64,000 bases of DNA. It comes from Tridacna crocea. Taxonomy: Eukaryota > Mollusca > Bivalvia > Cardiida > Cardiidae. Position 1 is the first letter of the stretch. Each line of letters starts with the position of its first letter. Under the pieces are notes generated by a model that saw only the letters and a list, made by a program, of their open reading frames with translations, did no database searches and had not been told where the DNA came from. This document shows positions 1,538 to 34,991 of the stretch, one piece after another. The stretch covers positions 31,027,210 through 31,091,209 of the forward strand of contig OX031073.1 of NCBI GenBank assembly GCA_943736015.1, read 5' to 3'. The position numbers and the translations under genes are program-made.

Positions 1538-1601
1538 TGATGGCGGAGGCACAAAAGACTAGATCTATCTATAGTCACAATAATTTTCATGCTTTTAAAA
1601 C

Positions 1602-1880
1602 CTGAAATTTCCCATGTCATCATCAGGCTTTCCCCTTCATTCACAACCTCATCACTTTGTTTTGTAGATACTTTGGGAGCTGGATTGACCTTCACCTCCA
1701 CTTGACCTTGACCTAATTCAACACCAGTGACCTTGACACTATAGACACCCTGATCTGTGGTGCTGCTTGATGACACAGAGTATGTAAGGACATCTTCCAG
1801 TAACTGTTGTACATGAACAGTGTCTTGTATAACAGGATTACCATCTTTGAAAATTTCAACAGCACTGCCCTCTGTTAGTC
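1602..1880 (-). CDS. Giant Ig protein, exon 14 (type A): end of Ig12, start of Ig13
   Basis: A 279-base phase 1-1 exon, the last one found in the window: [53 protein letters not shown]. It is two codons shorter than the other type-A exons ([10 protein letters not shown] lacks the extra residues) and more diverged, so it lies outside the most recent duplications. The gene must continue below base 1. Confidence 0.87.
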
Positions 1881-4800
1881 CTGGAAACAGTAAGAAAAGT
1901 ATCACAGTTTTCCATTGAAAATGGTTGTTTGTTTGGAATTTACCACCATTTTCATCATTATTTCAGCTATATCCCAGCATCCAGTTTACCTATTCATGGT
2001 ATCCTATGGTTTTTCATAACTTTTTCCGAGACAGCAAATATTTGGCCTGGCCAAATTGAAAGCATTTGAGGGTGACAATTTAGATGTTGCTGAAATGTTA
2101 AGATTTACCCTGGAGGTGGGGGAGAGGTGTAGAAAACATGATGTGAAAATTCTGGTTTTCCAAGACTTTCTCCTCTTCACACAGTGTTTTTTACGGCCAT
2201 CTCCCTTAGGTTTGTTAAAATGTGGGAGTATATGGTCAAGGATTAAAAAAACTATGTCCTCCTTGAAATTTGATTGAAGTAATGTAATCTACAGTATAAG
2301 TAATGTGCCAAGGTGTTTTGATCTAAGGTCAGACACAAAAAATGTGCTGTCTAATCTCGATTTTCACCACATGCCCAATCAAATGGAATAGCACATAATC
2401 ATTGAATGAACAAGCCATGGAACGAACTGGTTTTGGAATGAAAAAGCCCAGGATCACGCGATCAGTTGGCAAATTTTGTATCATTGTGCCAATAGAAGGA
2501 TAGGAGTGAGTGAAGCTATTTTCAATAGAGAAATTAGTATTTCCACGATCAATTGCCTCAGCCAGTGTATTTCCAATTAAATATCAGAGTGCTATTGAGA
2601 AATTCATTTGCCTATGAAAAATTGAGTTTAATTGGGTTTACTTCCTTTGGCTTTGCACAAAATATGATACATGTCTTCAAAATTCAATATTGAACTCATA
2701 GCAGTATTGTCTTCGACAATTACAACAGAAATGCTAGTAAACATGTTTTTCTCATTTTTCCCAAAGATCCTCTGCAATTTCGAAGAAAAATCAGTTTATC
2801 TACTTCATGTTTGTTGTCTGTAAATACTATCAGTCTGAACTGGTCAATTGTTTTTTGACATATAGTGAAGGGTGAAGAATAAGTCTGAACCTGTTAATTT
2901 CCATTTCAGCTCAAGTGTTTCCCCTTCTTTCAAAGTGGTACATTGTTCATCTGTCAACACCTCTACTTTTGGAACTTTTGTGACCTTGACCTGTACAGCT
3001 CCATCCTTGACCTCTGTGTCCTTGACCTTTATGCAATAAAGGCCTTCATCTGATACCGAAATAGATTCGAAAGTGAGGGTGTAGATTTGACCTTCACAGG
3101 TCAGCTTGCATTTCTCATTTGTTTGAAGCTCTGACACACCCTTTAGAACAACAACATCACTTTCAGATGCACCTACAAAAAAACTAGACATAATTAGAAA
3201 TGTTACAGGCTGTTGGTTGCCTTGAAACAATTTCGTTGATCATACCTTCTGAAATAGTACACTAATCAAAATGAAAATTGCAGCTGCAAAAGATCTCATT
3301 GTTGGGAGCTTCCACCACAATGTCAGCCAATTCTTTTAATATTGTGGGAGAAGAATAGGACATGAAATTGAAACCAGACAGACACCGAGCTCCTGATAAG
3401 AAGGAGTGATGGTATTCTGTAGTCATTATTTCTCTTTGAACCCTAAGTTGTGGGTACTCATGAGATGATTCTAATGAGTACTCACAATATAGGGTTCAGT
3501 AGAGAATAATTAATATTTTCAATTTTTAAATCAAAATCAGTCCCTCCATCTGGAGTTCTGCAACAGACTTAAATGAATACATCCTCCCTTGTTTTCCTTG
3601 TTGGGATTATAACAAGATGGAAGTAACACATTGCTGTGTTTTGAACAGTTTCAGAAAAATATTTGTTTTTCTTTCAACAATATTTTTCCTGTTATGAACT
3701 AGTCTAACACAGTTACAATTACATATATTTATTACCAATTTTATCTGGAAATGCTTCCAGATTGTGTCTGAGCGTTAGTTTTTGGCTATGCTTTCAAATC
3801 AAACATACCTCTTTATAAACATGTAGAAACACTGTTGCAATAGATTAATGTTTTAAAAAGTAGTCAAACATAAGTGTTTAAAGTTTAAAGAATGATTTGT
3901 ATAGCTATGCGAGTTGGCCAGGAAATGATAAGAACAACAATAATACGGAAGAAATCTATCACCACAGAAAACCATTTTACATGTTACAAACCTGATATTT
4001 CCCATGTTATCGTCAGACTCTCTCCCTCCTTAACAATCTCCTTGCTCTGTTTTGTTGATACTATTACTTTTGGAGCAGGGATGACCTTTACCTCAATTTG
4101 ACCTTCACTTTGGTCAATTCCAGTGACCTTGACACTATAGGTGCCTTGATCTGTGGGACTGGCTGTTGATACACTGTATGTCAGGACATCTTCAGACAAA
4201 CTTTGTATGTGAGAACTGTCTTGTGTCACAGGAGTGTTGTCTTTGAAAATTTCAACAGTGCTTCCCTCTGTTAGTCCTGAAACAGTAGTGAATGGCATGA
4301 CCATACAAAGTGTTGCTTCTATCCATAGAAACTTGTTTGTTAGTTTTGTATTATCTCATCACCAGACGAAAAAATTTTAGACTGATCCAAATTGAAAGAA
4401 TTAGCAGATGTCAAAATTAGAGTGCCTCAAATATTGAAAATTGTTGTATTATCTCATCAGTAGACGACAAAATTTTAGACTGATTAAAATTGAAAGCATT
4501 AGCAAATGTCAAAATTAAAGTGCCTCAAAAATTGAAAATTGTTTTGGGAAGGGTAAAAAACAGTGTTAGAAAAGGAGAAAATGCTGGTTACCGAGATTTT
4601 TTCCTTGGCCCATAATGTTACTAAAAGGCTTCTTTTTCAGGGTTGTGAAAACCCGGAATTGTCTTGGAAATAGTTATTCATTGGTTTTATCATTATTTCA
4701 GCCTCACCATGGTGGCCAGAGCATCTTTGCATTGTTTCTGAGTATTTTTCAATCATTTACCAAACAGTCCCTGAAAATTACGACCCTGAGGTAGAAGCCT

Positions 4801-7800
4801 TTTGAAAACATTGCCGGAAAAGAAGAAAATGCTGGTAACCAGCATTTTCTCCTTTTCCCACAATGTTTTCTACCCTGCTGGAAAAATTTCAGTTATTGAG
4901 TTACGTTCATTTTGTTGTCTGCAGTTATATGTGTATAAGCCAAAGTAATTGTTATAAACTCTGGGGTCCAATTTCAGCTCCAAGGTTGTCACTTAACACA
5001 TCTAAAAATAGTAGAAGTCTACTGATTTGAACTACATACCAAATATGGTAGCCTTTGGCTATAAATTATGGTTTAGAACCAGATAACATTTTAAGTTGAT
5101 AGAAGTACAGTAACTCTTTACCAAACAACATTTACAGACTGGTACAAATTGAAAGCATTTGCAGACGTCAAAATAAATGTGAGTGAAAAATCGAAACTTG
5201 ACTTGGGAAGGGTAGAAAACATTGTGCAAAAAGGAGAAGATGCTGGTTACTAGCATTTTCTCCTTTTCCCACAATGTTTTCAGAAGGCTTCTAATTCAGG
5301 GTCGTCAAAAGTCATCACTGTGTGGTAACTGAAGCTATATGCCAAATATTCAGTAACCCTACGCCTTACGGTTTTGGACAAGATAGTTTACAAAGATTTT
5401 TAATATTTTTCTTTTTTTTTTTGACATTTCAGACAGACTGTTAACAGGAATGAAACTGTTTTAAGAAACTCTGAACAGAACCACGGCAGAAAAATTTTTG
5501 TGAAGTTCAGTCAAAATTGGATCAGCAGGCTCAGAGAAGATGATGTGATTACAGACACTGGGCAATGACTAGTCTCTGGCCTGTGGAGCTTAGCCCTCTA
5601 CCACACAATTTTTGAAACCCTGAGAAAGAAGCCATTTGAAAAAAATGTGGGAAAAGGAGAAAATGCTGGTAACCAGCATTTTCTCCTTTTCCTACAATGT
5701 TTTCTACCCCATCAATTAAAAATTGCACCATTTGAGCCACACTGAAATTGTGGTCTGCTAACCTTTCAGTTAGGACAGGGCTAAAATTTTGTCAACTGGC
5801 ATAGAGTTAAGTAAGTCCAAACCTGTTAATTTCCATTTAAGCTCTAGTGTTTCCCTTTCATTCAAGGTGGTACACTGTTCATCTGTCAACACCTCTACTT
5901 TTGGAACTTTTGTGACCTTGACCTGAACTGCTCCATCCTTGACCTCTGTGTCCTTGACCTTTATGCAATAAAGGCCTTCATCTGATACCGAAATAGATTC
6001 GAAAGTGAGGGTGTAGATTTGACCTTCACAGGTCAGCTTGCATTTCTCATCTGTTTGAAGCTCTGACTCACCCCTCAGAACAATAACATCACTTTCAGAT
6101 GCACCTACAAAAAACAAGACATAAATAGATGTGCCACAGGCTGTTGGTTGCCCTGAAAAAAATTACGTTGATCATACCCTCTGAAAATGTAAACTAACCA
6201 AACTGAAAATTGCAGCTGCAAAAGACTGTTGGGAGCTTCCATCACAATGTCAGCCAATTTTTTTAATACTGTGGGAGAAGAATAGGACATGAAACTAAAA
6301 TCCGACAGACAAAAAGCTCCAGATTAGTGGGAGTATGGTATTCTAAAGTCATTATTTCTCTTTGAGGCCTATATAGTGGGTACTCATGAGATGATTCTAA
6401 TGAGTACTCACAACATAGGGTTCAGTGGAGAATAATCAATATTTTCAATTTTGAAATCAAAATCACTCCCTCTATCTGGAGTTCTGAGATAGATTTTATC
6501 TGGGAATGCTTTCAAATTGTGTTTAAGCATTAGGTTTTGGCTATGTCTTCAAAGTGAAACATACCTCTTTATAAACATGTACAAACACTGTTGCAGCAGC
6601 TTAAAGTTTTAAAAAGTACTCAAACACAAGTGTTTAAACTTTAAAGAATGATTTGTATAGCTACACAAGTTGGCCAGGAAATAAAAAGAATAAAATAATA
6701 AGAAAGAAATCTATCACCACGGACAACCATTTTATGTGTTACAAACCTGATATTTCCCATGTTATAGTCAGACTCTCTCCCTCCTTAACAACCTCCTTGT
6801 TCTGTTTTGTCGATACTGTTATTTTTGGAGCAGGGATGACCTTTACCTCAATTTGACCTTCGCTTTGGTCAATTCCAGTGACCTTGACACTATAGGTGCC
6901 TTGATCTGTGGGACTGGCTGTTGATACATTGTATGTCAAGACACCTTCAGATAATTTTTGTATGTGCGAGCTGTCTTGTGTCACAGGAGTGTTATCTTTG
7001 AAAATTTCAACAGTGCTGCCTTCTGTTAGTCCTGAAAACAGTCATTAAAGGCATGACCATTCTATGTGTTGAACCTAACCATAAACAGTCGTTTGTTTGT
7101 TGTGTACCAACTCTTTACCAGACAACAAAATTTTGGACTGATCCAAATTGAAAGCATTTACAGACATCAAAATTAAAGTGACTCAAAAATTGAATATTGT
7201 TTTGGGAAAGGTAGAAAACGTGAGGAAAGGAGAAAATGCTGGTTAACAGCATTTTCTTCTGGTCCCATAATGTTTTTAAAAGGCTTCTTTTTCAGGGACG
7301 TGAAAACCTGTAGGTCTAATTTCACCTCCAAGGTTATCACTTAACAAATCCAAGTCTAGGTAGCAGTCTATTGGTTTAAACTACGTCAAATTAGGCAGCC
7401 CTTGGCCACATGGTTTAGAAACCAACAACATTTAACCCTTTACCACACAATGACGACTTTTAATGACCCTGAGCAAGAAGCCTTTTGAAAACTTTGTGGG
7501 AAAAGGAGAAAATACTGATAACCAGTCTTTTCTCCTTTAACCACTAAGTTTTCTACTCTAAGAAAAAATGCATCATTAGAGACACTATAAGATTATTGTC
7601 TGCAAATGCTTTTGATCTGGATAGGTAAAAAATTCTACTGTGTGGTATAGGGTTAAAGTTGAAAGAACCATTAAATGAAGCTAAATGCTAAATATTGGGT
7701 AACCCTATGCCTTATGATTTTGAACAGAATAGTTAACAAAGATTTCTAATAATTTTCTGTTTTTTTTTTGACATTGCAGACAGAGTTTTAACAGAAATAA

Positions 7801-10800
7801 AATTCTTTCAAGAAAGTCTAAATAGAACAATGGCAGCAGGATTATTTCTGTGAAGTTTGGTCAAATTGGATCAGCAGTTTCAGAGAAGATGATGCAATTA
7901 TAGATTACAGACACTAGGCAATGACATGAGAATGCTAGTCTCTGGCCTGTGGAGCTTAAAATAAGTGCAAACCTGTTATTTTCCATTTAAGCTCAAGTCT
8001 TGTCCCTTCTTTTGAAGTGGTACACTGTTCATCTGTCAAAACCTCTACTTTTGGAACTTTTGTGACCTTGACCTGTACTGCTCCATCCTTGACCTCTGTG
8101 TCCTTGACCTTTATGCAATAAAGGCCTTCATCTGATACCAAAATTGACTCGAAAGTGAGGGTGTAAATCTGACCTTCACAGGTCAGCTTGCATTTCTCAT
8201 CTGTTTGAAGCTCTGACTCACCCTTCAGAACAATAACATCATTTTCAGATGCACCTATAGAAAATTAACATAATTAGAAATGTTGCAAGCTGAAAAAACA
8301 TCCCCTGTTGGTTGTTCAAAAAGAAATTTGGTTGATCATACTCTCAGAAATAGTAAACTAATCAAAATGAAAATTGCGGGTGCAAAAGATCTCATTGTTG
8401 GGGGCATCCATCACAATGTCAGCCATACTGTGGGAGAAAAATAGGACATGAATTTGAAACCAGAAAGACGGACAGATTTAGATTTAAAAATCCTCCCCTG
8501 TTTTCGTTGGTTGGGATTATAACAAGATAAATGTAATACATTGCTGTATCTTGAACTGTTTCAGAAAATTGTTTTCTTTCAACAATATTTTTCCTGTTTT
8601 GAACAATTCTAATACAGTTACATATATCCATTTTTATCTGGAAATGCTTTCATATTGTGCTTGAGCGTTAGTTTTTGGTTAGGCCTTAAGGTAAAACATA
8701 CTTTTTTATAAACATATAGAAACACTGTTGCAATGAATAAATGCTTTAAATGTTTAAAGTTAAAAGAATGATTAGTATAGCTACACGAGTCAGCCAGGCA
8801 ACAGAAATCTATCACCATGGAAAACCATTTTATGTGTTACAAACCTGTTATTTCCCATGTTATAGTCAAACTCTCTCCCTCCTTAACAACCTCCTTGCTC
8901 TGTTTGGTTGATACTGTTATTTTTGGAGCTGGGATGACCTTTACCTCAATTTGGCCTTCACTTTGATCTATTCCAGTGACCTTGACACTATAGACACCCT
9001 GATCTGTGGGACTGGCTGTTGCTACATTGTATGTCAGGACGTCTTCAGACAAACTTTGTATGTGAGAACTGTCTTGTGTCACAGGAGTGTTATCTTTGAA
9101 AATTTCAATAGCACTGCCAGCTATCAGTCCTGAAAATAGTAGTTAAAGGCATGACTATACAAAATGTTGCCACTATCCAAGAAAAAAATTGGACCATCAT
9201 CAATAATATCTAGGTTTTAACTCATTAACCCTTTCCCAAACAATCCCTGGTTTTTACGGGTCAGGAATAGAAACCTTTTGAAAACATTGTGGGAAAATGA
9301 GAAAATGCTGGTAACCAGCATTTTCTCCCTTTCCCGCAATGTTTTCTACCCTATCATATAGAAAAATCATCTTTTTAGCAATTGTTAATTTGTCATCTGC
9401 AAAATGCTTTCACTTTGGTCTGGTCCAAAATTTGCCGTTTGAGAAAGGGTTAACAAAGTACAATATTTTAGGCTTGTCCAAATCGAAAGCATATGCAGAT
9501 GACAAAATAAAAGTGACAGAAAATTTAAAATACATAATTCAAACCTGTTATCTTCCATTTCAGCTCTAGTGTTTCTCCTTCTTTCAAGCTGATAGACTGT
9601 TCACCAGTCAATACCTCTATTTTTGGAATCTTTGCGACCTTGACTTTTACTGCTCCATCCTTGACCTCTGTATCTTTGACCTTTATGCAGTAAGTCCCTT
9701 CATCTGATAATGAAAGTGATTCCAAAGCAAGAGTGCAAACTTGACCTTCAAAGGTCAGTTTGTGTTTTTCATCTGGTTGAAGCTCCAAATCATCCTTCAG
9801 AACAGTAACATCAGTTTCAGATGCACCTACAGAAATAAACATAACATGAAGAGTGTAACATATTGCTATATTGGACTAGCGGTAATGAAAATCTTTTTAT
9901 CTTTTAGTTTGAGCACATTACTAGGATATGCAGTTTAACATCTTGTGTCAAGCTTCCAAACATCTTACAATATGAATAAATTTGAAGAACTACAAAGAAT
10001 GAAGAGATTGAAAATCCCCCGTTTTTGATTATATTCGTGTTGGAAAGAAGCCAGCAGCATGGACAGAGTCTTGTGTGAAATACTGGTACTGGCTGGAGCA
10101 GTATGACTGAAAATAATCATGAAAATATTATGAAATATTGAAGTAAATCATTGAGCACTTCAATGAAATGATATTCACTGCTAAAAAGACTTGTTTTGAA
10201 TCAAGCGAATTACAGGTGTTGTATGTGTTGTATGTGTTTTTGTTAAGGGTCCATAATGATCATCGAACTCAGGACCTTCAGGACCTCATAACCTAAAGGT
10301 CCCGAGTTCGATATGCGGGAGCGGAGGTCAACTTTGCGATTTTTCATTGGCCCACACATTCGGCGCGAGTACTGGTGTAGTTTCCAGGAAGCAGAATCGA
10401 GAAAGATTAGTATAAGTTGTAAGAACTTGTTTCTCAATCGATGTAAAATAAATATGTTTAAACTAAGGGTCCATAATGAAATATATACATGTATTGAGCT
10501 CCTTTCTTCAGTGATATGGCATTTCATTAAATAGAAAAAAAAATACATGTAATTGTCTGTGGCTTACGATAAACAAAACAATATGAGTAGAAGTACATGT
10601 AATACATGTAATTGTCTGTGGCTTACGATAAACAAAACAATATGAGTAGAAGTTTCATAAAAGTTTTGTCCAATATTGGTTCATAATGGAAATATACATC
10701 AAGCCTCCTTTTTCCATGACACTGCATTAAATAAAAAAAAAAATAAATAAATAAAGCTGACTATCAAAAGGCACAAATATTATGGAAATTCATCAATTCT

Positions 10801-13800
10801 GTCAAGGATTTTAGAAGATATCTTTATGGATGAATAAACAGACAACATTAAAACTGTATCACCTCACCTTTACAAAAAATACCAACAAATACTAAATACT
10901 GAAACAAGATGAATTACCTATGATTTTCCACTTTAACTCTAAGAATTTGCCTTCAGCAAGACTTGTGTTGGATTCATCAGTCAGTAATTCAACTTTTGGT
11001 ACAGCCTTGACCTTGAGCTCAATTTCACCTTCAATTACATCAGAGTCTTTGACTTTGATTCCATAAACTGACTGGTCAGACATCATGGCTGTTTCTATAG
11101 TGACAACCAAAGTGTCACCCTCTAAAGAGATCATTCTCTTGTCATCACAATCAATGGCATTCTTTTCTTTAAATATGGTGATATCATCAAGAGTGATACC
11201 TACAAATAGATGTAGATCTATATGATTATCTACCTTACAGCTTTGATTTTTAGAAGAGAATTCAGATCAGACCATAATAATTTTTGTGGACATGATATCA
11301 GTAGATTAACCCTTTACCAGCAGAAAATTTTTTAGTCTTTTCCAAAGTGAAAGCATTTGCAGACGACAATTTCAGTGTGGCTCAAATGGTATAATTTTTC
11401 TTTGATTAGGTAGAAAACATTGTGTAAAAGGACAAAATGCTGGTTGGCAGCATTTCTTCTTTTTCCACAATGTTTACAAAAGGCTTCTTTTCCAGGAGTG
11501 TCAAAAGTCAGAATTGTGTGGTAAAGGGTTAATATCAGAGTGCATAAAATAGATACAATTAAAATGAATTGAAATGTGATACATCAAAACATATATGTAG
11601 GAAAAACTTTTTTCTTTCCCCACAATGTTTTTTTTCAGAGAGACCTACAAGTTCATAGGCAAAAGTATAATGAAAGTTTCAAACATTTTACCCAACACAC
11701 AGGAAAGAAATAATTTAACCCTTTACCACACCATGCCGACTTGACGACCCTGAGAAAGAAGCCTTTTGAAAACTAATGCTGGTAACCAGCATTTTCTACT
11801 TTTCCCACGATTTTTTCTCTCCTTTCAAATACAAATTTCAAATTTTCAGTCACTTTTATTTTGTTGCCTGCAAATGCTTTCAATTTGGACCAGTCTAAAA
11901 TTTTGTTATTTGGTAAAGAGTTGATTAAGCCTTTGCCTGACAATTCAGTGTTTAAACCACCCAAAGAATTTCTTTTTTTGAAAACATAGCAGGGGCATAC
12001 TTTTGAACAATTTCAAAGACAAATCACATCATATCAGTCACATTAATTTGCTTCCCTTAAATAATTTTGATTTAACCCCTTACCAAACAACAAAATTTTA
12101 GACTGGTCCAAGTTGAAAGTGTTTGCAGACAACAAAGTTAATATGACTAAAGAATTAAAATAAGTTTTAGGAAGGGCAGAAAAAATTGTGGAAAAAGGAG
12201 AAAATACTGGTTATCAGCATTTTCTTCTTTTCCCACAATGTTTTCAAAAGGCTTCTCTCTCGGGGTCGTTAAAAGTCTGGATTGTGTGGTAAAGAGTTCA
12301 AAAAGCCTAAAACTTCTCATCAGGTAAAGAATTAAACTGACCTGTTACTTTCCACGTTATGGCTATTTTTTCTCCTTCCTTCACACACAACTGTTTTTCC
12401 CGTGCTGAAATAGTCACAGGAATTTTGGCAAGTTCACTAGAGTCTGGAACAGTCTCCTCAATGTCTGGTACATGATCAGTTTTTTCCTTCTGTTCTGGTA
12501 TAATTTCTTCCTCTCTCACATCCAATATAACTTCCTTAGAGTCAGTCTCATCTACTGATATGCCTTTTGAATCTGCTTCTTCCACTGCTGGCATGCTTGC
12601 CTTTTCTTCTACCTTAGTTTCTGTCTTCTGCTCTTGTAATTCTTGCATCTCTGGAACCTTTTCTGTTTTGTCTTTCTTCACAGGTTGAATCAACTCTTCT
12701 TGAATTTCAGTCTCAACCACATCCTTGGTTTCAATGGCTTCTTCAGCTGTATCATTGGGTTTAATGGTTTCTTCAGCTTCATCCTTGGTTTTGACAATGT
12801 CTTCAGTTATATTATTGGGTTGAATGATCTGTTCACCTCCATCCATAGTTTGAATGACCTCTTCGGGTCTATCACTGGATTGAACAATCTCTTCTCCTTC
12901 ATCCTTTGTTTGAACAGATTCTTCTGGTATATTCTTGGTTTGAACAGCCTCTTCAGCAATTTCCTTAGTTTGAACAGCCTCTTCAACTATTTCATTGGTT
13001 TGAACAGTCTCTTCAGCAATGACCTTAGTTTGAACAGTCTCTTCAGCAATGACCTTAGTTTGAACAGTCTCTTCAACTATATCCTTGGTTTGAACAGTCT
13101 CTTCAACTATATCCTTATTTTGAAGAGTCTCTTCAGCTTTATCCTCGGTTTGAACAGTCTCTTCAGCTATTTCCTCGGTTTGAACAGTCTCTTCAGTTAT
13201 ATCCTCGGTTTGAACAGTCTCTTCAGCTTTATCCTCGGTTTGAACAGTCTCTTCAGCCTTATCCTTTGTTTGAACAGTCTCTTCAGCTATATACTTGGTT
13301 TGAACAGTCTCTTCAACAATATCCTTGGTTTGAATATTCTCTTTTTCTTTATCATTGGTTTGAACAGCCTTTTTTGCTATATCCTCGGGCTGAACAGCCT
13401 CTTCAGCCTTATCATTGGCTAGAACAGCCTCTTCAGCTATATTCTTTATTTGAACAGTTTCTTCAGGTAAAGTCTTGGTTTGAACAGTCTCTTCAGCTAT
13501 ATCCTTGGTTTGAACAGCCTCTGCACTTATACCCTTGGCTATTGCTTGAAAAGTCTCATCTACCATTTTTTCAATTCTTTCTTGTTTAACTGCATTGTTT
13601 TCCTTTTCAGTTGCAAATGTTGTTGTAACAGTAGCTTTTTTAGTGTCATCAACATTCTTAGAAATTCTTAAAAAAGAAAGAAAGAAATTAGAACAGTTAT
13701 AGGTTGATAAGTAGCCAGGGGCCCATATGTGGCCTACTACTGGATAAAGTAAAAATGATGAAAGGACATCAACTTCTGTAATAGTCAATAAATTCAAATG

Positions 13801-16800
13801 AAAACTGAAGGTGCACATGCTCTAAGTTCTAAAGAGATGTGTCACTGAGAAGTGACTGATTCTTCCTTTCCCCCCCCCCCCCGAACACACACACACAAAA
13901 AAAAAACTTCCCTTTATCAGCTATTCACTGAACAATGCCTATGGACAAACACTTCTAACCTTGCCTTGACCTTGACCTTCAGATAATTTGTGAATAACAC
14001 ATAAATTAACTGTGGTTAACAATTCTGCAGTGACACTGAAATTAATTCACACTTACAGGCGAGACACAAACATTTCCCCCAAAGAATGCATTTGAATTGC
14101 CATGACCTTGACCTTTAACCTCCAGACACCCTTCTTGTGCATGATTCATCAATTTAGTGTGATTTAAGATTTGTGCAAAAGCATTGTGAAATCAGAGAAG
14201 GGGGAAAAAGTTAAGGTGCAGACACAATATACACATTTGACCTTGCCTTAACCTTGACCTTTGAACAAGATTCATTAGCACAACACTTCTTGTTTTTTGA
14301 ATAGTTGACAACTTTACATAGTTGTATTGAAATTCAGTCATAATTTAAAAAGTTAAAGGTCATACATGAACATAACCACCCAAAATTTTCCTTTTTAGAT
14401 GTATTAGATATATTTCACATTGCTGTAACCTTAACCTTTGCCTACTGGCATTTTTTTTTGGTTTGCAACATAATGTGTTTATTTGCTTTATAATTTTGTC
14501 GAGATATTCTGAATTTGAGGCACAGCAAAAGAAGTAATATGCCTGACAAAACACTATCCCAACATATTTGATTTTGCTGCAATTTTGACCTTTAACCTAC
14601 AAACATGATTCTTGTGCACATGACACGATGTCTTGATGTGACTGACATTTGTCCTAAGTTATTCTGCAACTGAGTCATAGGGAACAAAGTAATAAGCCAG
14701 ACACAAATACATCCTATACCCTGCAGTTCCTCAAAAAAAGAAACATTTGACCTTGCTGTGACCTTGATCTTTAACCCATGTACATGAATTTTGCGCTCTA
14801 GTGTACATAGTCTTGATGTGGTTAACATTTGTGCAGTGATTTTGACATTAAGTGATAGGAAAAATAGTTATGGCCATGACAGAAAAATTGACTTAAAATC
14901 GGTGATCATCATTTTCTCCTTTTCTCACAATATATTTCAAAAGCTGTATTGCTTAGGGTCATCAATTTATTGCTTTTAATTAGTTGTCTGCAAGTGCTGT
15001 CAGTTCGGTCAAATTTACAATTCTGGTGTTTAACTCATTACAAAACAACAAAATTTTAGGCTTGTCCAAATCGAAAGCATTTGCAGACGACAAAATATAA
15101 ATGACTGAAAATTTGAAATTTGTTTTGTGAAGGGTAGAAAACATTGTGGGAAAAGGAGAAAATGCTGGTTACCAGCATTTTCTCCTTTTCCCACAATGTT
15201 TTCAAAAGGCTTCTTTCTTAGGGGTGTCAAAAGTAGGGATTGTGTGGTAATGGGTTAATTAAACAGTCACTGCAAAGAGTATGAGATAAAGGAAAACAAC
15301 ATTCTCCGCCAGTGAAAAGTTCTTGGACATTTGTAACTCCTAGCCTATTTTTGCTAGAAGAACTGTCAAAATGTCATACAGTGTAGGATCAAGATCAGAC
15401 TGCATTTTTTTCTACAACTTTCTACTGATCTACACTGTCTGCAAAACCAAACAAATTTTTGTGTTTATTCTACAAGCTAATATGAGTGATAGTTTAGCCC
15501 ATATCCACACAATCCCTACCTTTGACAAACATGATAAAGAAACCTTTAGAAAACACTGTGGGAATAGGAGAAAATGCTGGTAACCAGCTTTTTCTCCTTT
15601 TCCTAAAATGTTTTCTACTCTTCTTGAGTAAAGTGTCAATTTTTGGGTCACCTTTATTTTGTCGTCAAAAAGCTTTTAATTTGGACAAGTCTAAAATTTT
15701 GCCATGTGGTAAAGGGTTAACCCTTTAGGCCTTTACCACAAAATACCAAGTTTTACTGACCTTGGCATAAAGCCTTTTGACAGCTTTGGGAAAAAAGAAC
15801 TTGCTGGTACCAATAGAATAAGTTTGAAAATGTGTCGTTTGATAAAGACGTAATTACCTTTCTTCAATAGCAATGACGTTGACCTTGATCTGGCTATCTG
15901 TGACCTTTGATCCTGATATACCTATGCAGTAGATACCAGTATCATTGAGCGAGGCAGAGGGAATGTTTATGATGAAAGAATCTGAGCTCAAAGTCAGTTT
16001 ACATCTGTCATCCTGTTTTACCAATGAACCATCCTTCAACTCTGTGAGGTGGGTTGCATCTACCCCTGTATATAAAAGGGGGGAAAAAATCAGCCATATT
16101 TTTCAGTCTAGGATATAACAAGAAATGCTTTAGCCATTTACCACACAATCCAGAGTTTATTTCTTTACTACATGAGAAAATTTTAGACTGGTCCAAATTT
16201 AAAGCACTTGAAGACAACCTAAAAAAGGTGACTGAAAAATTGAAATTTGGTCTGGGAAGGGTAGAAAACACTGTGGGAAAAGTAACAGCATTTTCTCCTT
16301 TTCCTACAGTGTTTTCAATAGGCTTTTTTCACGGGGTGTTAAAAGTTGTGTGGTAAAGAGTTAAACAACACTGAACAGGGTCAAAAAATTCACTTGTTTG
16401 TTCGTCCTTACTAGTAAAAATTTGTTGAGGGCAAGTGGATTATCCTTCTTTGTCTAACTGTAGGATGAGAGCAAAATGGCAGGAAGACAAGTAAGGATTC
16501 TAAAATTTTTGAACCCTGCTGAGACAAAAGTGCCTTTTGAAAACATTGTAGGCAAAGGAGAAATGTTGGTAATCAACAGTTTCCCTATTTTCAAAAGTAA
16601 TTTCAATTCTTAAAATGACATTTAATGTGGTTTAAATCAAATAATCTTTGGTATCTTTCGTTGACTTTTCAAATTCAAGGACTTCAATTGGCCATAAAAT
16701 GAATAACTTTTTCCATTTCCAAAAAGTATTCTCAACGTGAGAAATTAACAAAATTTGACCTTATTACTGAAATACATGAAAAAGAAAATAAAAAAAAAAT

Positions 16801-19800
16801 ATCCTTAAATCTTTACCACACAGTCCCGAGTTTTAACAACCCCAAGAGAGAAAGCTTTTGAAAACATTATAGGAAAAGAAGAAAATGCTGGTAACCAGCA
16901 TTTCTCCTTTTCCCATGTTTTCTAGCCTTCCCAAAACTAATTGCAATTCTTGATTCACACTAAATTTTGATTTGTTGCCTGCAAGTGCTTTCAAATTGGA
17001 CCAGTCTAAAATTTTGTTGTTTGGTAATGAGTTAAAAAGACAGGAGTCAGTCAAAGACAATTACACAGGTATTGTATCAAGACGTATTTTATCAAGACAT
17101 ACATCACAAAAATTTGAAAATAGTACCGACGTTCAAAAAGCAGGTTGGTGACTTTACAATTAGTAAAAAAAATGTCATCACGCTATTTGAATACCATCCT
17201 GCATAATTGATGTAAATTATTTATCACATGACATTTTCATAGATCTTTGCCATTATAGCAATACTTGTACAGAAATATAGTTTGTCTTACATTTGTCTAT
17301 CTTTTTGAATTTTGATGGTTTATCAGCTGTTGCAAAAATTCATTTATGATTCATTTTTTAACCCTTAGTCTGTTAAGAGTGACTGAGGGACCTTCTGAGC
17401 ACAGATTTGAACAAGATCAGACTGTACAACCTTTCTGATAAGGAGATCTTTCTCCAAAACAAGAATACAGATATTATTGGGACAGTAATGGAAGAAATCT
17501 TTACCAAGGGTTGAGAGTGGAATACAAAGTATGTTATCTGTTGCCCCTCATAAATTTCTGGTATAGCCCCTATTTTTTCTGTTGAGGGGCCAGTTGCCCG
17601 AACAGTTTTGACTTTGAAAATGAACCCTGTATTAACAATTATATAAACAGATTATGTTAAATTTACGGGCACTTAAATGGATTTATACGACTGACATCTG
17701 TAGAATGAGTAAGCAAGATGAGATTGCATGTATGTACAGCCTGATCTTGCAATATACGCTAAGCAAAATAAACTTCCTGTCACAAACAGTAGGATATGGA
17801 TTATATCATCGAGGTATTGTAGAATACTGGAATTTTGCACCCTCAACCAGTTACATCAAAATTTACCTGTTATTTTCCATTTCAAGCACAATTCTTCCTT
17901 TTCCTTTACAGTAATCTCAGACCTTTCTGCAATGACCTTCACCTCTGATACTCCTGGAGTGACCTTGACCTCTACTTGACCTCTGTCATCTTCTAACCCA
18001 TCGACATGGAGAGAATATATTCCAGCATCTTCAAGGGTTGGTCCTTCTAGGGTAAGGACACAACTCTTGTCATCCACTGAAATCTTTACATGGTTACTCT
18101 CACTTAACACCTTACCATTTTTACGAATTGTGATTTTCTTACTAACATTTCCTGTAAGAAAAAAAAAAAGAATATTGAAGTCAGTGTCTAGATGTTTTTA
18201 CCATAGACAGAAACTTGCTTACTCCTGAACTCTTTCCCAACAACAAAATTTTAGACTTGTCCAAAATTGAAAACATTCGCAGATGACGAAATAAACGTGA
18301 CTCCAAAATTGAAACCGGACTTTTTGAAGAGAAGAAAACATTGTAGGAATAGGAGGAAACGCTGATTTCTCCTTTTCCCTCAAAATTTTTAAAAGGCTTT
18401 TTTCCTCTGGGTTGTAAAACCAGGACTGTTTGTTAGGGGTTTATACCAAACAAAATATCCTCGGGTGCCCAAACTGCACCCCTCTAAGCTTTATTTTGGT
18501 TGGTTGGTTGTATTGGGGTTTAACGCCACTTTAACAGCTGAGGTCATATCATGGCGGTCAGTGACGCACATGTGTTTCCTGGCTTTCTCACACCGGTACT
18601 TACACTACTTTCTTTCCAAAGCCACCGACTACTTTTCTCACATGCTTCCGCAGAGGTGAGAGGCGCAAATACGCCGGAAAGAAAGTTTGCCTCAACCGGG
18701 TAGCTTTATTTTGGAAAAGAACTATAAATAGATAATATACAAAAGGAAAAAAAATGCACAAGTCAAATATCTTCTGTTGCCATCAATCTCGATCAAAATT
18801 CATGTGAACGATAATTTTAAACTTCCAAAACTAGTTCTAGTAGCGTCAATAAAGGTGGTTTACCAATGGTTATTGCTTTAGGATGCACCTTTCCTTGTAA
18901 CCTGTACCCAAGAGTGGTGAGAGGTACATTAATTTAGCAGCCCTGTTAATTGGCATGTTCTTCTCTAAAATTTCTTGCAATATGAGAATATTGTTTATTT
19001 GTTCTTCTGATCTTTTGAATTCAAAAGGAGAGTGCGAATATCAGTTAAGGACTGTTGGACGAAAACCTATCTATTAAGATTTGCTTGACCTTAAAGAAAT
19101 TTGTTTTGTCACATGATTTTCATTCATAAAATGTAAATCTTTGCAGACAAAGCACTTCAGACATGTTTACAGTTATATTTCATAACTTTAGAGGTGATCT
19201 TTGACAAAACAAAAATGCATTACGAAAATACACAAAAAAAACAGTAAATCTAAGTGGACATAAAAATTGAGACAAATATCTGCCAAAAGATCTATATCAA
19301 TTTGAGGTGAAAACCATTGGAATGTATTTATTATGGCGTACTAAAAACTTTTCTGTCTGTCAGTCTCACGCATGCTGAAAAATCAGGAGATTTTGATGAA
19401 AATGAGACAGGTGGCTGAGTTAGGGAAGGAGTAGAGTTTGGGCACCGACAATATTAAATTTGTGAACCCTGGAGCAGGGTTACCATAGGGCTACAATTTG
19501 AAGATTTTCTAGGGAAATCTAACAGATGTCACTACATATCAAATTTGGTTGTCATTGGCTTTATGGTTTTGGATAAGAAGACTTATTTTAATGATTTTCA
19601 TTATCTTTTAAACATGTTGCCATGGCAACAAGAATTTTTATTGGAATTTTTTCAAGGCTTGAAGAATGTGTTAATATGGATCAATTTCTTCACGAATTTC
19701 TTGAAATTCATTTTTGTAAGTCTACTGTATGATTTCATTGATTTGTAACAAAAACCGTGTGCTTTTCATATTCAAATTGAAAACCAATCGGACGCAGGAA

Positions 19801-22800
19801 CCAAATAAGGGCGCGGGAACCAAAGAAGTCGGTCGAAAAATATTCCTTTCAACGTCTTCCCGTTGAATGATTTTAAACAACGTGCTGTTTGAGTGCCAAT
19901 ATTTGTAGACTCTTTTTTCATTTTTGACACAGAAGATCTCTGTGGTTTAAGATGGAATCTTGACAAGCTCATCAAATATCAAATTTATCTTCTCAAAAAA
20001 AAAGGCGGTTTATGACATCCATAGAGTGTTTGCTTGAGGTCTATTCTGTGGTTGAAGAATTAAGTTCCGCATGTGTCAAATATAACTGATTTCATATAAT
20101 TTCAGTAGGCCTACTCCGTGAGTTTCATTGTTCTGCCATGCTTCACATGGAGCGCTAGCTATCGGTTCTTCATAAAATTCACTGGTCTCGGGCCCATGGA
20201 CTCGGGTTATTGTCGAACCCTACCGCGATACATCACACCAAACAAGTCGTCATATAATTATAGATTCATAAAAATCACATCAAGCAAGCCGTCACATAAT
20301 TATAGATTCATAAAAATCTATGTTGTATAACAACCGACTGTATCAGATATAGAGCTATCTGACTCGTGACCTGGAGGTTGAAGTACTGGTGTTAGAAAGC
20401 CAGGAGCCAGATGGGTGTGTCAGTGACCGCCATGATATGACGTTTACAAGCTGTTTACATGGCTTTAAAATAAAGGACAATACAAACTGTATCATCAAAT
20501 ACAATGGTCCTTTGACATGCTGCAAATTTACCAATTACATAAAGTTTTGACCTTCCCGAACTGCACACGGTGACTTGGGTCGAATGCATGTAATGCAGAT
20601 GCACGTAGGCTAATGAGTCACTTTGTTTTTAATCAAAGCATTTCAAAAATGCTTTCAAATTGGACAAGCCTTAACCCTTAGGTTGATGAGCGCAACTTAA
20701 ATGCCTTTTGCTGACAGTGCAGATCAAGATCAGACTGCACAGAACGTGCAGTCTGTTGTTTGATCAACATTGTCCGATAAGAAGATATCTGTCCGAGAAT
20801 ATATACACACACACTTTTGAAATAGACAAAAAATAAATATTTTTACTATTGGCTTGAAAGCATCATTTCACTTGTTTAGGAGGATAGGGGTTAGGTATTG
20901 CCTTAAAGAACTAGGAAATCGATGAAGGTTTTAAAATAAACACATACCGTTTATTTTCCACTCAATTTTGGCTCGTTCACCCTCCATTATATTCATCTCC
21001 GGGTCTGTCATTACTTCAAATACCTTTAAGGTCTCGTGTGAGTGACTGTCAGCAAGCAATGTATCATCTTTTACTTTTTTGACTCTAGCCTCCTCTTGAA
21101 GATTTGTTGTCGTCACTGCCTGAACCTTTTCGACATTAGAACTTGTGACTTTTTCAAAAAAGGCTTCACCGTTTTTCATAGTCTCGCTGCCGATTTCTAC
21201 AGTTTTGCTATGACTTTGTTTGTTGGTCATAGTCGTGTCAGATAATTTTGAAGATTGATCGATGGAGACAAAGGACTCCGAATATGTTTGTTTGCTAACA
21301 GATTGTTTATCGTAGGTACCGAAAGACGCCGAAGTTTTCGACCCCTCTCTGATTTCAAAAGAGCTGCTTAATGATTTATCAAGATTAAGGTCTGTGATAT
21401 CAGAACCGCCGTTTTCAACTGCATGTCTAGCTCTAGCCTTTTCGCGTGCAGCCTTTCTGATGGCAGAGATTGAGTCGGATTTTTCTGCTTTTAAATCTTT
21501 GGAAAATTTCATAGTTGTATAGTCAGTCGATTGTAATGAGTGATCAGAACTTTCATGAAGATACTGCCTCTTTTGTTTTGTAGGTCCTGATGAGAAGGTT
21601 ATATCTGACTCGCTCGAGAAAGAGCTTCCTCGCGAGGTGATACCACTGTCGAAAGTTGCTTTGCGGCGATAGTCGCTGGATCTGCTCATACTATATGATG
21701 AACTTTCCTCGTAAATTCGGCTTGATTCTAAACCAAGCAAGCTGTCCTCGGAACTTCCCGATGACCAGCGTTTGGAGCTGTAAGACTTATCGGAGAAATC
21801 ACGTGACCTCCGGAACGCCATCTCGTGGATCGAGGTTAGATCTTTGTCGTTATCAGTCGATGTTTCTAAAATACAATGATACATTATGTATTAAAAACTT
21901 GTCTCATTATATTACTGAGCTTTGAAAAGAAAGGCACTGAACTCTAGCTTCTCACGTCAATCTTCTCACGTGTTAATCGTATTTAAAAAAAAAAAAAAAG
22001 TCTAAAGTAGCCTCTCGAGGTAATTTTAAATTCTCATCAAATTTTTGCAAGCCTCGATTGAAAGTCTCAATATCACAAATATGCGCCGATTAGGTGCAAT
22101 CGTATTCAAATGCGGAAGTCATATAAAAGCAGATGGGGTTCTCTATAAAAGACCGTCCTGTTATTTAAAAACTCAAATTGCAACTTTCTGCTGAAAGTAG
22201 CCACACAGATTTTACACACATGCAAAGACAGATAGATATGCAGTATTTTACAAGACAATGATATTTACAGCAAAAATTTAAAGGTGGCCCTTCAGATTTT
22301 GGGACGAAAATTTTACAAAAATACAAAAAAATCATCCTTATACTCCCAAAGCCTTATAATTTTCATTCATTAAACCCCAGTAGTCGAAAACCATCCGACA
22401 ACTAGATAAATTAGAGATTTACTACAGCCCAGGTCGACACTGATTAGAAGGGAAACACGGTCTATTTTTACATGAGCAACTCGCTCATTTACATACTGGA
22501 AATATACAGACGAAGCTTCGAACACAGCGTTCGAAGTTCTAGACATTATGGAAAATAATTATATGTTTGTTATGTTATGGAATTTAATAGTGGCAGATTT
22601 TTAATGTCACATACAACCAGTTGATTATCCTGTATTTTGCAGACTGATCTCGGATCTGGTCTGTCCGCTCGGATCTGATCTGTCCGCAAAATGATTATTG
22701 TTGTAAATATTAATGTTGTTGCTGAATCTAGTTAAAATAACATCACATTTTTTTTTTTATATATTGAGCTTAGGCCTAACCTTTTCCCAAACAACAAAAT

Positions 22801-25635: not shown

Positions 25636-28600
25636 TACAGTTTCTTATTCATTTATCATGAAGTAAATATAGGAAGATGTAAATAAAATACTATTTAATC
25701 TGCAGGACTGTTTAATATCACTTTACCTGCCTTTAAGGTCAGTACAAACTCAGATCAGACTACACAGCTCGTGCATTCTGATCCTAGATTTATACTTTCC
25801 GCTATTAATTTTGGTTAGCATTCCTTTTATTGAATGCAAACTTAATGAATGTGCGTACCTTCTGAGCAGTATTGTAATCTACAGATTTCATCAAACTTAT
25901 AAATTTAAACATACTTGGTCTAACATAGTACTTTTTTTTCGATATATTTCTTGCGAAGACTATAGTAAAATGGACATTCAATAATGAAATGGTAATCATC
26001 ATCTATACAATTCATATCACAATATATACAAAATCTTTCATTTCTGGAAATTCGGATTCGGCCGTGTCTTCCGGATTCAACACGTAGAATATGGGAAGAC
26101 GTGCGGACATACATTAGTCAAACATGCTGCTCTACTTCTTTATACACTTTGATTCTCTGTTCAAACATGCTATGATTTGAATGTAGATCTATCTTATGTC
26201 TCTTTAGTCTACGTTTGTCCTGACAGATAGCCTTAATTCTTTGTCGTTTACCATAATTTCGGTTATATCAATGTACCTATCCATGACTTCCTGAAGTTTC
26301 ATTTTATCAATGCAAGCCCTTGAAAGCGCATAACATTTTAATCAAGCAAGTGGCTGTCGTTCCTTATAATAAACATCGTTTAGAGGTGTAGGAAGAAGGT
26401 AGCAAAAAGGACTATCATTAACCATTAGAGGAATTCAAATTGCCACCAACTTTACAATGTAAGCAAAAAATAGCTACCTTTTCTCATAAAAAGCGTCTAG
26501 CGGTATGGGTAGAAGGAAGCCAAGAGGACTATCACCAACCGTCTGGGAAAATCAAAATTCTACGATAGTTCGCAGATACATACAACTCGAACCATCTTTA
26601 TGGTCTTTATCGTGGTTAAGTTTGTAAACTATAGATTAGAAAGCGTCTCATTGGTTCCTTAATGACAGTTTATGGAATTTTCGACCAATGGAATCACGCG
26701 TTACAACTCACTTTCACGAGATGAATTTTCTGATACAATTTTAGTAACATTATCCCCAATTACTTCATTCATATTGTTCGTTTCAAATATCACCTTTCGC
26801 ACAGTAATTATAACTTAACCTTGCATTATGGAAGGGGGGTTAATTACATCTGCAAAAAGTATGACTTGGGTTAGCCTGCGCATTCCATGATGGCTGACCT
26901 GAGTCGAAATCTTTTGCCATTGAATCAAATTTCTGCATATCAAAGGCCCAGTCTACCTTATTGTTAAGTCTATTGTTAGATAAGATTATATTTGTGGATG
27001 TTCATAGCATTACGGAAATACATTTTAAGAACATATTTATTCAATGTATAATTACATACTTGAGTGTCTATTGCCATGCTTTGATCTTTGATACCGACAC
27101 AGGTGAAAAACTATGCGGACAAACAGGAAAATTGTCCATTTGGCACAATGTTTTGACAGACATTTGCATCAGATGCATCAACATAGATGTAAGATAAGGG
27201 GGGGGGGGGGTGAACATAATCGAGATCATGTGACATAAGTCGTTATTCGGATGCCCTTTGTCATGGTCGTTATTTTTCCCAGTAATTTGTCGGGTAATTA
27301 ATACCACGTGTTACCAATGTGGTGTGGGGATGGTGTTGGCAATGAAGTGCGAAGCGTTTCCACCTTTTAATAAGTAGTTTTCTTTTTACCCAAAACTTGC
27401 CCATTTTATGTGAGTAGCGCTCTACAAAGGGGGTTTGTACTGCATTACATAAAGCCTTTACCACACGACAAAATTTGAGAATTTACCATATTGAAGTAAT
27501 TTATATGAACATTTCAAATGTTTTTAGTTGATGTATATGTCTGTTAAAAGGTAGAAAACATTGTTGGAAAAGAAGAAAATGCTGATTACGAAATATTTGA
27601 ATGCCCCTTTTCGCGTGTGTGTATGCCATATATTGACTCTCATACATTCAGATATTATTAATTTTACCCTCATTAAATTTAGAATTAAAACATGATAAAG
27701 AAAGAGGGAGTGCTTGAGACGATCAGTCTGCAAGTACACGCAGATTTATCATGGTCAACACACTAGAACTGCACAATTCATTCATACGGTCGAGCAAAGC
27801 AGTTTAAGTGCGAATATTGTATGTCTAGACGAGAACAGAATTGAATAACATGTGCTTATTACAACTAATTATTGCGATAAACATACTTTATCAGTTACAT
27901 ATAGGTGTCACTGCATGGCGGGCAAGATATCATGCTGTCTGCATTGTGTCTTATCTCAATAACAATATGGTGTTCATGCGCGGATCCAGATATCTTTCTC
28001 GGGGGGGGGGGGGGGGGTCCCACCGAAAACGCACTCGTCTTATTATTATGATACTTAGATTTCCAGATTTCAGTGGATGTAAGCCGTTTACAAGAAAAGT
28101 CAACGTTTCCAGTTCTAACCACAAGGAAGTCTCCACATTTAGAGCCTTTTTGTTTAAATTTATGACTGTATTTTACATAAATTCTGTGCAATATCAAACC
28201 AGTACCATTTCACGAATCCGATAACCACATTTTTGCCAAAATTCCAGGGGAGGTCCGGACCTCCGGTCCCCCCCTCTGGATCCGCCCATGGTGTTACCTT
28301 TGTTTGTTACCTTTGTAAAAATGTACAAAACTAGTCACGCAAAGCCTAGGTATGGCCAAAAGCCCCATAAGACAAAAGCCCCAAAAGCACAAATACCTAA
28401 TAGGACTAAACCCAATAAGGCAAAAGCTCCTATACAGCTAAAGGTCTTATAAGACAAGCTCCTATAGGACAAAAGGTCTCATAAAACAAGCTCCTATAGG
28501 ACTAAAGGTCTCATAAGACAAGCTCCTATAGGACTAAAGCCCCCATAATGCAAAAGCCCCCATAGGACTAAATGTCTCATAAGGCTAAAGCTCCCATATG

Positions 28601-29387
28601 TCTAAAGCCACCATAAGGCAAAAGCTCCTACAGGACTTATTTTGTAGGATAACATTAGGGTGGAAATAGTCCACTACATTAAACTATAATGTCAAAGAGG
28701 GGAAAAAATAGTTACACAAAAGAAGGTGTGTATCTTTTCTCACTCTTGACGGAATTAGAGTACTTGTATATTAACAGACAAAGCTCCTGTAGGGCTAAAA
28801 CCTACATAAGACAGAAGTTCCAAAAGGACTAAAGGTCTCATAAGGCAAAAGCTCCAAGAGGACTTAAGGTCTCATAAGAAAAGCTCCAAAAGGACTAAAT
28901 GTCTCACAAGGCAAAAGCTCCTATAGGACTAAAAGTCTCATAAGGCAAAAGCTCCCATAGGACTAAAGGTCTCATAAGGCAAAAGCTCCCATAGGACTAA
29001 AGTTCTCATAGGGCAAAAGCTCACATAGGACTAAAGGTCACATTAGGCAAAAGCTCCTATAGGACTAAAAGTCTCATAAGGCAAAAGCTCCTTTAGGGCT
29101 AAAGGTTTCATTCGGCAAAAGCTCCCTTAGGACTAAGGGTCACATTAGGCAAAAGCTCCATTAGGACTAAAGGTCACATTAGGCAAAAGCCCCCTTAGCA
29201 CTAAAGGTCACATTAGGCAAAAGCTCCAATGATCTCAACACGAAAAAATGGGGAAAAAAAGCCTAATCTTAGTTTCTTATGGGCATTTTCTAACTTTTAT
29301 CTTGAGCTTTTGTGTTGTTTTTTCTACGTTTAAGTGAAAATTCTGGTTTAGAGAGAGAGAGAGAGAGACAGAGAGACAGAGAGAAAC

Positions 29388-32400: not shown

Positions 32401-34729
32401 AGGCATTGTTTGGTAAAAATTGAAAACACTTGCAGACGACAAAATCAACGAAACTCAAACATTGAAATTTGTCAGTTCCAACAGGGTAGAAAACACTATG
32501 GGAAAAGGAGAAAATGCTGGTTACCAGCATTTTCTTCTTTTCCCACAGTGTTTTCAAAGGCCTTCTATCACAGGGTCGTAAAAACTAGGGATTGTTTAGT
32601 AAAGGGTTAAATATTGATAATCTCACAGTTTACGTGAAAATGATTCCTGCAGTAATACCTTTGACTATTTTTACATTAGCACAAGCTTTTCTTTGAATGG
32701 TAAATTTGACCCCGATTTCAACATTATTTCTCCCGCCCGAGTGGCTCTGTAGTGAGCGCGTCGGACTCATGACCTGGTGGTTATGAGTTCGATACCCGGT
32801 TGAGGCGAACTTTCTTCCCGGCGCATTTTCGCCTCTCACCTCTGCTGGAGCATGTGAGAAAAGTAGTCAGTGGCTTTGAAAGAAAATTGTGTTAGTGAGG
32901 AAGCCAGGAAAGACATGTGCATCACCGACCGCCATGATACATGACCTTAGCTGTCAAAGTGGCGTTAAACACTACTACCAGAACTAACTTCAACATTATT
33001 TCAGTCGCCCATTTTAACATTGCCTCTGTCGCATCACAGGGACAGCTCACCTAGTCAAGGGGTTTCGGAGGGTTTTATCAGTACTATTTTGGTACTTTAT
33101 GCACTGTTCGGAATAAGCTTTAGACATGTGACTGGAAAGTAAAAAAATGCTTATTAACAATCTTATAGTTCAAGTAAAATCCTGCTGTGAAACCTTGACG
33201 TGTTTTTCTCCCAAAATCGCAAAATGTTATATTTAAATGGTGTGTTTTACGCAGCTTTCTCCATTATTTCAGTTGCATCACAAGGACAACTCTCCTATTC
33301 AAGTTTAGTCAAGATTGTTCCATCAGTTTTCGGCTGGTGCTCAAGGCATTGGCCAAGAAAAAAATCTCTCTTGACCAGAAAGGCCAGCCCCTGCTGGTGA
33401 AAACGTCTGAAAATTTCTCATGCAATCAAATTGCTTGTCCTAAAATTTTGAATTGAACTCATTTTTAGAATGTTTGTTGAATATCACATCTCAAGGCAGT
33501 ACACCCGTAATACTTCTAGTGCAGCATGGAATAAAATTTCTTGTTTGCAGATAAATATCAATTTTTACATAATTATATAATACTTTTGCACATTTTGGAA
33601 CGATAAAAAATTCCCTTCATGTCTCTCTTCAAATTATCATCTTCCTTTGTTATAAGAATATAGTGGTTATAGATTTATAAATGACAATTCTAAGAAGAAA
33701 AACAAGGTTAAAGTAGTACAATAATACTCATTTTTAATCATAGCAAATTTTGTACGATAACATTAGGGTGGAAATAGCTGTTTTCTATGGATCCACTACC
33801 TTAAACTGTAATGTCACAGAGGTTATAGATTTATAAATGACAATTCTAAGAAGAAAAACAAGGAAAGTGTGGTTCGGTTAAAGTAGTACAATAATACTCA
33901 TTTTTAATCATAGCAAATTTTGTACGATAACATTAGTGTGGAAATAGCTGTTTTCTACGGATCCATTACCTTAAACTGTAATGTCACAGAGGGAAAAAAC
34001 ACAGTTACACAAAATGAGGGTGCGTATCTTTTCTCCCTCTTGATGGAATTAGTGTACTTGTGCATTAACCCATTACCACACAATCCCTACTTTTGGCGCC
34101 CCTGAGAAAGAAGCCTTTAGAAAACATAGTGGGAAAAGGAGAAAATGCTGGTAACCAGCATTTTCTCCTTTTCCCAAAATGTTTTCTACCCTTCACAAAA
34201 CAAATTTCAAATTTTCAGTCACTTTTATTTTGTTGTCTGCAAATGCTTTCGATTTGGACATGTCTAAATTATTGTTGTTTGGTAATGAGTTAACAGACTC
34301 CCGATTGTTTTTTTTTTCATACGGTCAGAAGTTTAGTTTAAACATATTTATTTTACATCGATTGAGAAACAAGTTCTTACAACTTATACTAATCTCTCTC
34401 GATTCAGAAGTTTATGTAAATATTTCCAGTGAATGCTCGACTTCTAATTCAGAATGTTATAAAACATGGTCAATGACTGACACCTAATCTCGAGAAACAT
34501 TTGTTCTTTCAACTTTTTGCCACAGATTCCTAAGCTTGAAATACCATGTCGAACAGATTGCTGGACAAAAAGAAAATGCTGGTAACTATAGATGATATTG
34601 CCAGAAAGACCCTCATAATGTTTTCAACGGCTTTTTTTCGTGGGGTCGTGAAATACGTTAATCTTTGTTTAACTATGAATACTATCATTATAATGAGCAT
34701 GACATTTATTTCGATGATTATTAAACTCT

Positions 34730-34762
<33 letters not shown>

Positions 34763-34804
34763 CCACTTCTTTCCAGCGGCTCCTCTCTTTCTCTCTCTCC
34801 CCCC

Positions 34805-34864
<60 letters not shown>

Positions 34865-34890
34865 CTTTCTACTACTCTCCAGTGCCTCCT

Positions 34891-34934
<44 letters not shown>

Positions 34935-34960: not shown

Positions 34961-34991
<31 letters not shown>

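Follow-up and report, generated by a model that had tools for sequence, protein, structure and literature searches.

The stretch of DNA considered here, a window of 64,000 nucleotides from the bivalve Tridacna crocea (contig OX031073.1 of assembly GCA_943736015.1, positions 31,027,210 to 31,091,209), carries on its minus strand a series of exons that encode immunoglobulin (Ig) domains, and one of these exons contains a long tandem repeat. The repeat exon (13666..12342, minus strand; 1325 bp) is a single open frame of 441 full codons that starts in phase 2 and ends in phase 1, and its splice sites, the joined frame and a Pfam match to the joined Ig domain indicate that it encodes an acidic spacer of about 412 residues followed by the first half of the next Ig. 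In the direction of translation, 47 non-repeat residues lying within a predicted helix of low confidence (13525..13665) precede the decapeptide array itself (12715..13524), which is followed by 95 acidic residues that are barely repetitive (12430..12714) and by the first Ig half (12343..12429), the latter recognized by translation and by Pfam on the joined exons. Tandem Repeats Finder places a 30-bp minisatellite with the unit GAAGAGACTGTTCAAACCAAGGATATAGCT at 12721-13538 (period 30, 27.3 copies, 78% matches, 0% indels, score 789), and 27 decapeptide units, whose consensus contains neither Ser nor Pro, can be read from the translated exon at 13524..12715. An earlier sequence-only reading of this DNA, which described about 27 tandem decapeptides encoded by a 30-bp minisatellite in a single open exon, is confirmed on this point.

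The array has a sharp period at 10 residues by autocorrelation (z = 20.7 against 300 shuffles). The residues that flank it show weaker periods, with z = 3.3 at both 30 and 41 residues in the 47 that precede the array and z = 3.7 at 31 and 2.5 at 10 in the 95 that follow, and these are perhaps the traces of decayed units. It should be stressed that the openness of the exon is weak evidence by itself, since a repeat whose period is 30 bp brings open frames with it; on the plus strand, the array region has two further open frames, one of 260 codons and one of 176.

The splice sites read from the sequence match those of the neighboring exons. The sequence directly before the exon start is TTTTTTAAG, the acceptor reads TTCTTTTTTAAG|AAT and the donor CAG|GTCAGT. 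The preceding exon, E3 (15858..16065, minus strand), holds the latter half of the Ig that precedes the spacer and ends in phase 2 at AAG|GTAATT, the phase in which the repeat exon begins, and E5 (11199..10918, minus strand), which holds the second half of the Ig after the spacer, begins in the phase 1 in which the repeat exon ends. When seven exons are joined in order, one frame contains no stop codon, as compared with 89 and 133 stops in the other two, and the exact exon joins rebuild an Ig domain on either side of the spacer (Pfam I-set E = 1.4e-6, 28.7 bits before it, and E = 7e-6, 26.5 bits after it, with a cut-off of 23.7). The proposal that the exon is flanked by intact splice sites in matching phases is thus borne out, and its proposed location between the third and fourth Ig domains is correct when a separate upstream I-set exon found by Pfam (37847..37626, minus strand), which probably belongs to the same gene, is counted as the first. 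With the repeat exon alone skipped, the three frames contain 30, 34 and 74 stops, and skipping it together with E3 leaves one frame open. Further upstream on the minus strand, joined frame and Pfam identify E2 (17867..18151) as one Ig half followed by another, and exon N (20948..21865), recognized by composition and the joined frame, is Ser-rich (about 20% Ser) and ends in the first half of an Ig. Each of E2, E5, E6 and E7 begins midway through one Ig and stops midway through the next, with a length that is a multiple of three. Recurring TTGACCTTGACCTT-like words are present in the intron that lies upstream of the repeat exon (13960-14560).

Downstream of E5 lie eight further Ig exons, E6 to E13 (1600..9830, minus strand; splice sites of E6 and E7 located by script, the others by eye), of two types that alternate in the pattern ABABABAB. 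Within a type, the inner copies share 89–94% protein identity and the outer copies (E6 and E13) 70–74%, and identity between types is 28–41%; judged by these identities, the exons form a recent two-Ig super-repeat beside the minisatellite. Elsewhere in the window, tandem arrays outside recognized exons comprise units of 32–34 bp (28400-29230) and of 22, 44 and 88 bp (40564-40944), and a dispersed repeat, probably a transposable element, occurs on both strands at many sites in the window and in the downstream loci (e.g., 34155-35700). Upstream of the Ig gene and on the same strand there is an uninterrupted frame of 602 codons (50935-52743) that is TRIM-like, with a B-box zinc finger (Pfam E = 1.5e-6). 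A search of the whole 64-kb window for RNA families and tRNAs returned none of either.

The identity of the host gene was addressed by scanning 344 kb of the same genome around the window for domains. On the same strand, the downstream order is more Ig domains, then Ig and Fn3, kinase pieces, Ig and Fn3 pieces, a second kinase and an acidic frame, such that many tandem Ig domains, in the window and downstream of it, lie N-terminal of the kinases. The kinases are in tandem about 170–195 kb downstream, in the order PK1, Ig, Fn3, PK2; relative to the window start, the first set of kinase pieces lies at about -156.5 to -163.4 kb and the second kinase at about -177.6 to -180 kb. Pfam Pkinase matches the joined PK1 pieces with E = 3.5e-24 and a PK2 piece with E = 4.6e-21, and between the kinases the joined pieces match I-set (E = 1.5e-14) and fn3 (E = 2.7e-13). 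The window exons and the downstream kinases would belong to one gene, given their shared strand, order and phase. The usual motifs of a kinase include HRD and DFG, and at these positions PK1 has YLDM and NFT and PK2 has NL and DFT; PK1 at least looks like a pseudokinase, and both kinases may be. PK1 of Drosophila obscurin is reportedly a pseudokinase.

The layout PK1, Ig, Fn3, PK2 is that given for the obscurins (PMC10129394), and because of this kinase order the host gene is filed here as obscurin/UNC-89/SPEG-like; from its domain layout it looks unlike a titin, which was rejected as host on the tandem-kinase arrangement. The nearest relatives of the kinases among solved structures do not decide between a titin and an obscurin-type host: titin kinase (1tki) is closest to the PK2 piece (first among the best 60 of 1020 matches), and for the PK1 pieces, among the best 60 of 500 matches, first place goes to myosin light chain kinase family member 4, with a chain named Obscurin (8ak2) ranked 42nd. 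SH3, DH and PH domains would mark obscurin/UNC-89 proper as distinct from SPEG; no significant match to any of them was found in the 344 kb (best DH E = 1, best PH E = 1.7), in a weak test that used single consensus queries without a positive control. Titin-type Pro-rich PEVK units were also looked for, and Pro accounts for just 2.2% of the array and 2.9% of the whole spacer. The earlier proposal, a giant muscle Ig protein set beside the titin class, is corrected on this point: the layout of the host is that of the obscurin/UNC-89/SPEG tandem kinases, not that of titin. For Mytilus, obscurin is reported as one of the genes whose fold change in muscle exceeds 400 (PMC4581086), which is relevant to the present gene only by analogy.

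Searches with the repeat exon itself yielded little. The only Pfam match is to HC2, which at 16 bits (E = 0.014) falls short of its cut-off of 40, and a known domain inside the exon was rejected on this basis; no PDB relatives were found at E up to 1. A DNA search of the same genome, in which very common words were skipped, found only the locus itself (one match from one candidate). A protein search of the same genome gave 8 matches among the 150 scored of 191 candidates; three are the array itself, and the five outside it, at 30–46% identity and with internal stops in two of the five, are taken from their sequences for low-complexity matches. Myosin exons, read for a sign of the phylum, did not resemble the muscle gene, and neither they nor a ferritin exon compared with PDB spoke for or against a mollusc. 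No published description of the decapeptide repeat was found in the openly licensed literature that was searched.

The spacer was also examined for its composition. Charged residues make up 40% of it, with a net charge of -0.17 per residue, 0.7% aromatics and little Pro, and it falls on the disordered side of a charge-hydropathy plot. AlphaFold2, run without an alignment, gave a mean pLDDT of 39.5, mostly 26–45 across the array, with confidence low throughout, which is no proof of disorder; no secondary structure was predicted past residue 59 of 441, and a helix was predicted with modest confidence at residues 7–59. From these predictions the spacer is probably intrinsically disordered. The sequence-only reading had called the motif not Pro-rich and the segment not a simple PEVK, which agrees with what was found. 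Its description of an extensible linker stands as regards a charged, Pro-poor and probably disordered segment between Ig domains; extensibility itself is a further step that we infer. If each of its 412 residues is assumed to add 0.36 nm, the spacer would have a contour length of about 148 nm, and assumed persistence lengths of 0.5–1 nm would give it a resting size of about 12–17 nm.

The repeat spacer is one of several acidic segments in the gene. Three more lie between Ig domains on the minus strand downstream of the window, in exon B (-4800..-5648 relative to the window start; 849 bp, 190 residues as cut), exon C (-7311..-8396; 1086 bp, 270 residues as cut) and exon D (-15373..-15698; 80 residues as cut), and a fourth is a C-terminal acidic open frame of 767 codons, rich in Lys and Glu, located beyond the second kinase and on its strand (about -181.0 to -183.3 kb). 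Glu makes up 17–19% of these four segments versus 21% of the repeat spacer, net charge per residue is -0.12 to -0.18 versus -0.17, and aromatics are 0.5–3.7% versus 0.7%; Pro is more variable, at 1.6% in B, 0.7% in C, 10% in D and 5.5% in the C-terminal frame. Autocorrelation of B, C, D and the C-terminal segment revealed no clear tandem period (highest z 2.6). Since the four other segments are similar in composition and have no repeat, it is composition, not the decapeptide, that seems to matter. B and C have lengths divisible by three, and D, like the repeat exon, follows an exon whose length is not a multiple of three (E20, 220 bp) and starts in the same manner. The stretch EDTVQTEKA in spacer C was considered as an ancestral seed unit for the array and rejected, as shuffled sequences match as well: 51 of 60 codon shuffles equaled or exceeded its 16 of 21 bases, and 184 of 200 residue shuffles did so for its 6 of 8 residues.

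The array carries signs of unit duplication. Neighboring units have a mean identity of 0.785 versus 0.745 when their order is shuffled (none of 5000 shuffles reached 0.785), and two pairs of units are identical, 16 with 17 and 10 with 13. The match to consensus per 30 bases is 26–29 in units 8–20, 23–28 in the first seven and 21–24 in the last seven. Of the evolution by change in repeat number that had been suggested from the sequence, past growth by duplication of units finds support in the likeness of neighbors and the identity of units 16 and 17.

Whether selection has acted on the units bears directly on a more modest account of the locus, in which a minisatellite expanded within a tolerant linker as nearly neutral filler, with no function that depends on its length and with only the open frame and solubility under selection. 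Two measures fit this account. When the same changes were moved to random positions, the simulated nonsynonymous share was 0.757 as compared with 0.760 observed, and changes at four-fold sites (18/108) and at second codon positions (32/270) do not differ significantly (Fisher P = 0.24); from these comparisons, amino-acid identity in the units looks neutral. There is no bias toward conservative replacement beyond simulation (BLOSUM P = 0.38), and two of the other five frames have a lower nonsynonymous/synonymous ratio (0.64 and 0.53) than the coding frame (0.85); both results count against the reading of the exon as an acidic spacer. In favor of that reading, the array contains no stop codon where 5.5 would be expected, an outcome seen in 0.1% of 3000 simulations, and mean unit charge is more negative than simulated (-1.93 versus -1.25, P = 0.002), with the proviso that the units are not independent and the P values therefore too small. 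The unit charge also speaks against filler, as does the presence in three other linkers of the gene of acidic spacers of similar composition. On balance we regard filler as unlikely, although it is the strongest of the competitors considered here.

One further feature of the array counts against the spacer reading. Over the 27 units, 40 changes fall in the first half of the unit and 81 in the second, and the same imbalance holds at third codon positions (11 versus 31). Neither a requirement for spacing alone nor selection on residues alone would give such conservation of the first half, third positions included; it may come from uneven homogenization or from a role at the level of nucleotides. 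GAAGAG-like runs act as splicing enhancers, and the purine-rich runs of this kind in the array might assist the splicing machinery in recognizing an exon of unusual length, whose skipping alone breaks the frame. However, spacer exons B and C are long as well yet contain no repeats, and the units are not independent, such that uneven homogenization could yield the same first-half pattern. We therefore rate a role in the RNA as very unlikely.

A third alternative looks to the core of the decapeptide, where the triplet [TVI]Q[TV] occurs 18 times in the 27 units (16 VQT and 2 IQT). As a multivalent docking strip, the [VI]QT core would bind a partner, for instance the dynein light chain LC8, whose dimers, at as many as 18 VQT or IQT sites spaced ten residues apart, might zip two obscurin-like chains into a stiffer rod. 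The LC8 motif permits T, V or I before the Q and T or V after it (PMC3078936), a VQT site in LCA5 binds LC8 with a low-micromolar Kd (PMC9481538), and multi-site partners are known, with five sites in Nup159 and seven in Drosophila ASCIZ (PMC10046861). Like these partners, the array would present tandem Q-T anchored triplets along a disordered chain, but its flanks and spacing are unfavorable. Specifically, the array has Glu at -3, a position that favors positive residues, and mostly Lys at +2, a position that favors Pro, Asp or Glu, and dense charge lowers binding (PMC6607443). An 8-residue motif in a 10-residue unit also leaves a gap of 2 residues, when a 3-residue linker already gave heterogeneous complexes (PMC10046861). 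There is no support in the array for motif-level selection on VQT, V4 having changed six times at codon position 1 and once at its four-fold third position, and such a triplet is found once in C and is absent from B and the C-terminal segment. Both the docking of LC8 and the resulting rod strike us as highly improbable; if true, rod length would be read from minisatellite copy number, and a muscle giant would contain an element switchable from spring to rod.

The interpretation that we favor, and consider somewhat likelier to be right than wrong, is that the exon codes for a disordered, acidic entropic spacer between two Ig domains of an obscurin/UNC-89/SPEG-type tandem-kinase protein. It starts from what the analysis shows: an exon with a tandem repeat, an open frame across the joined exons, an acidic composition, a structure prediction free of any fold and the similar acidic segments of the same gene. 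Translated in muscle, the spacer would hold two stretches of stiffer Ig chain apart and yield under low force, probably as an entropic spring. The minisatellite would have grown within an acidic spacer, giving rise to the decapeptides, and each further copy would add ten residues, or about 3.6 nm of contour at the assumed 0.36 nm per residue, such that spacer length would follow genomic copy number.

Such an acidic spacer has precedents. In UNC-89, the chain between the kinases is disordered and acts as an entropic spring (PMC12812942), and this UNC-89/obscurin segment, which is reported to be elastic, resembles the present one as a long disordered stretch in an obscurin-type protein (PMC12812942, PMC10129394). 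That segment lies between the kinases, whereas the spacer described here is found among the Ig domains, a long way N-terminal of both kinases, and is built of tandem decapeptides. The PEVK region of titin is likewise a charged, extensible and repetitive segment beside Ig domains (PMC3859903), extensibility being carried over to the present spacer by analogy. PEVK units, in contrast, are Pro-rich and about 28 residues long, as opposed to the 10-residue, Pro-poor units found here in a tandem-kinase host. In C. elegans UNC-89, the KSP region consists of short tandem motifs inserted between Ig domains. The KSP insertion of M-band titin also places short tandem motifs between Ig domains (PMC4413555). 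The KSP motifs of titin and UNC-89 are phosphorylation sites, unlike a consensus unit that has neither Ser nor Pro.

Overall, the locus is a fresh example of a familiar design, not a new kind of system, and what it adds is a case in which a minisatellite has come to occupy one of several acidic segments within a single gene. Should the spacer be translated, the genome would fix its length, and not skipping of the repeat exon, since skipping that exon alone shifts the frame. The locus would then offer a natural series of spring lengths, in which copy number could vary among individuals or species against an otherwise constant protein. One repetitive and four non-repetitive acidic segments in the same gene would also provide a built-in control for the view that what such springs conserve is composition, not sequence.
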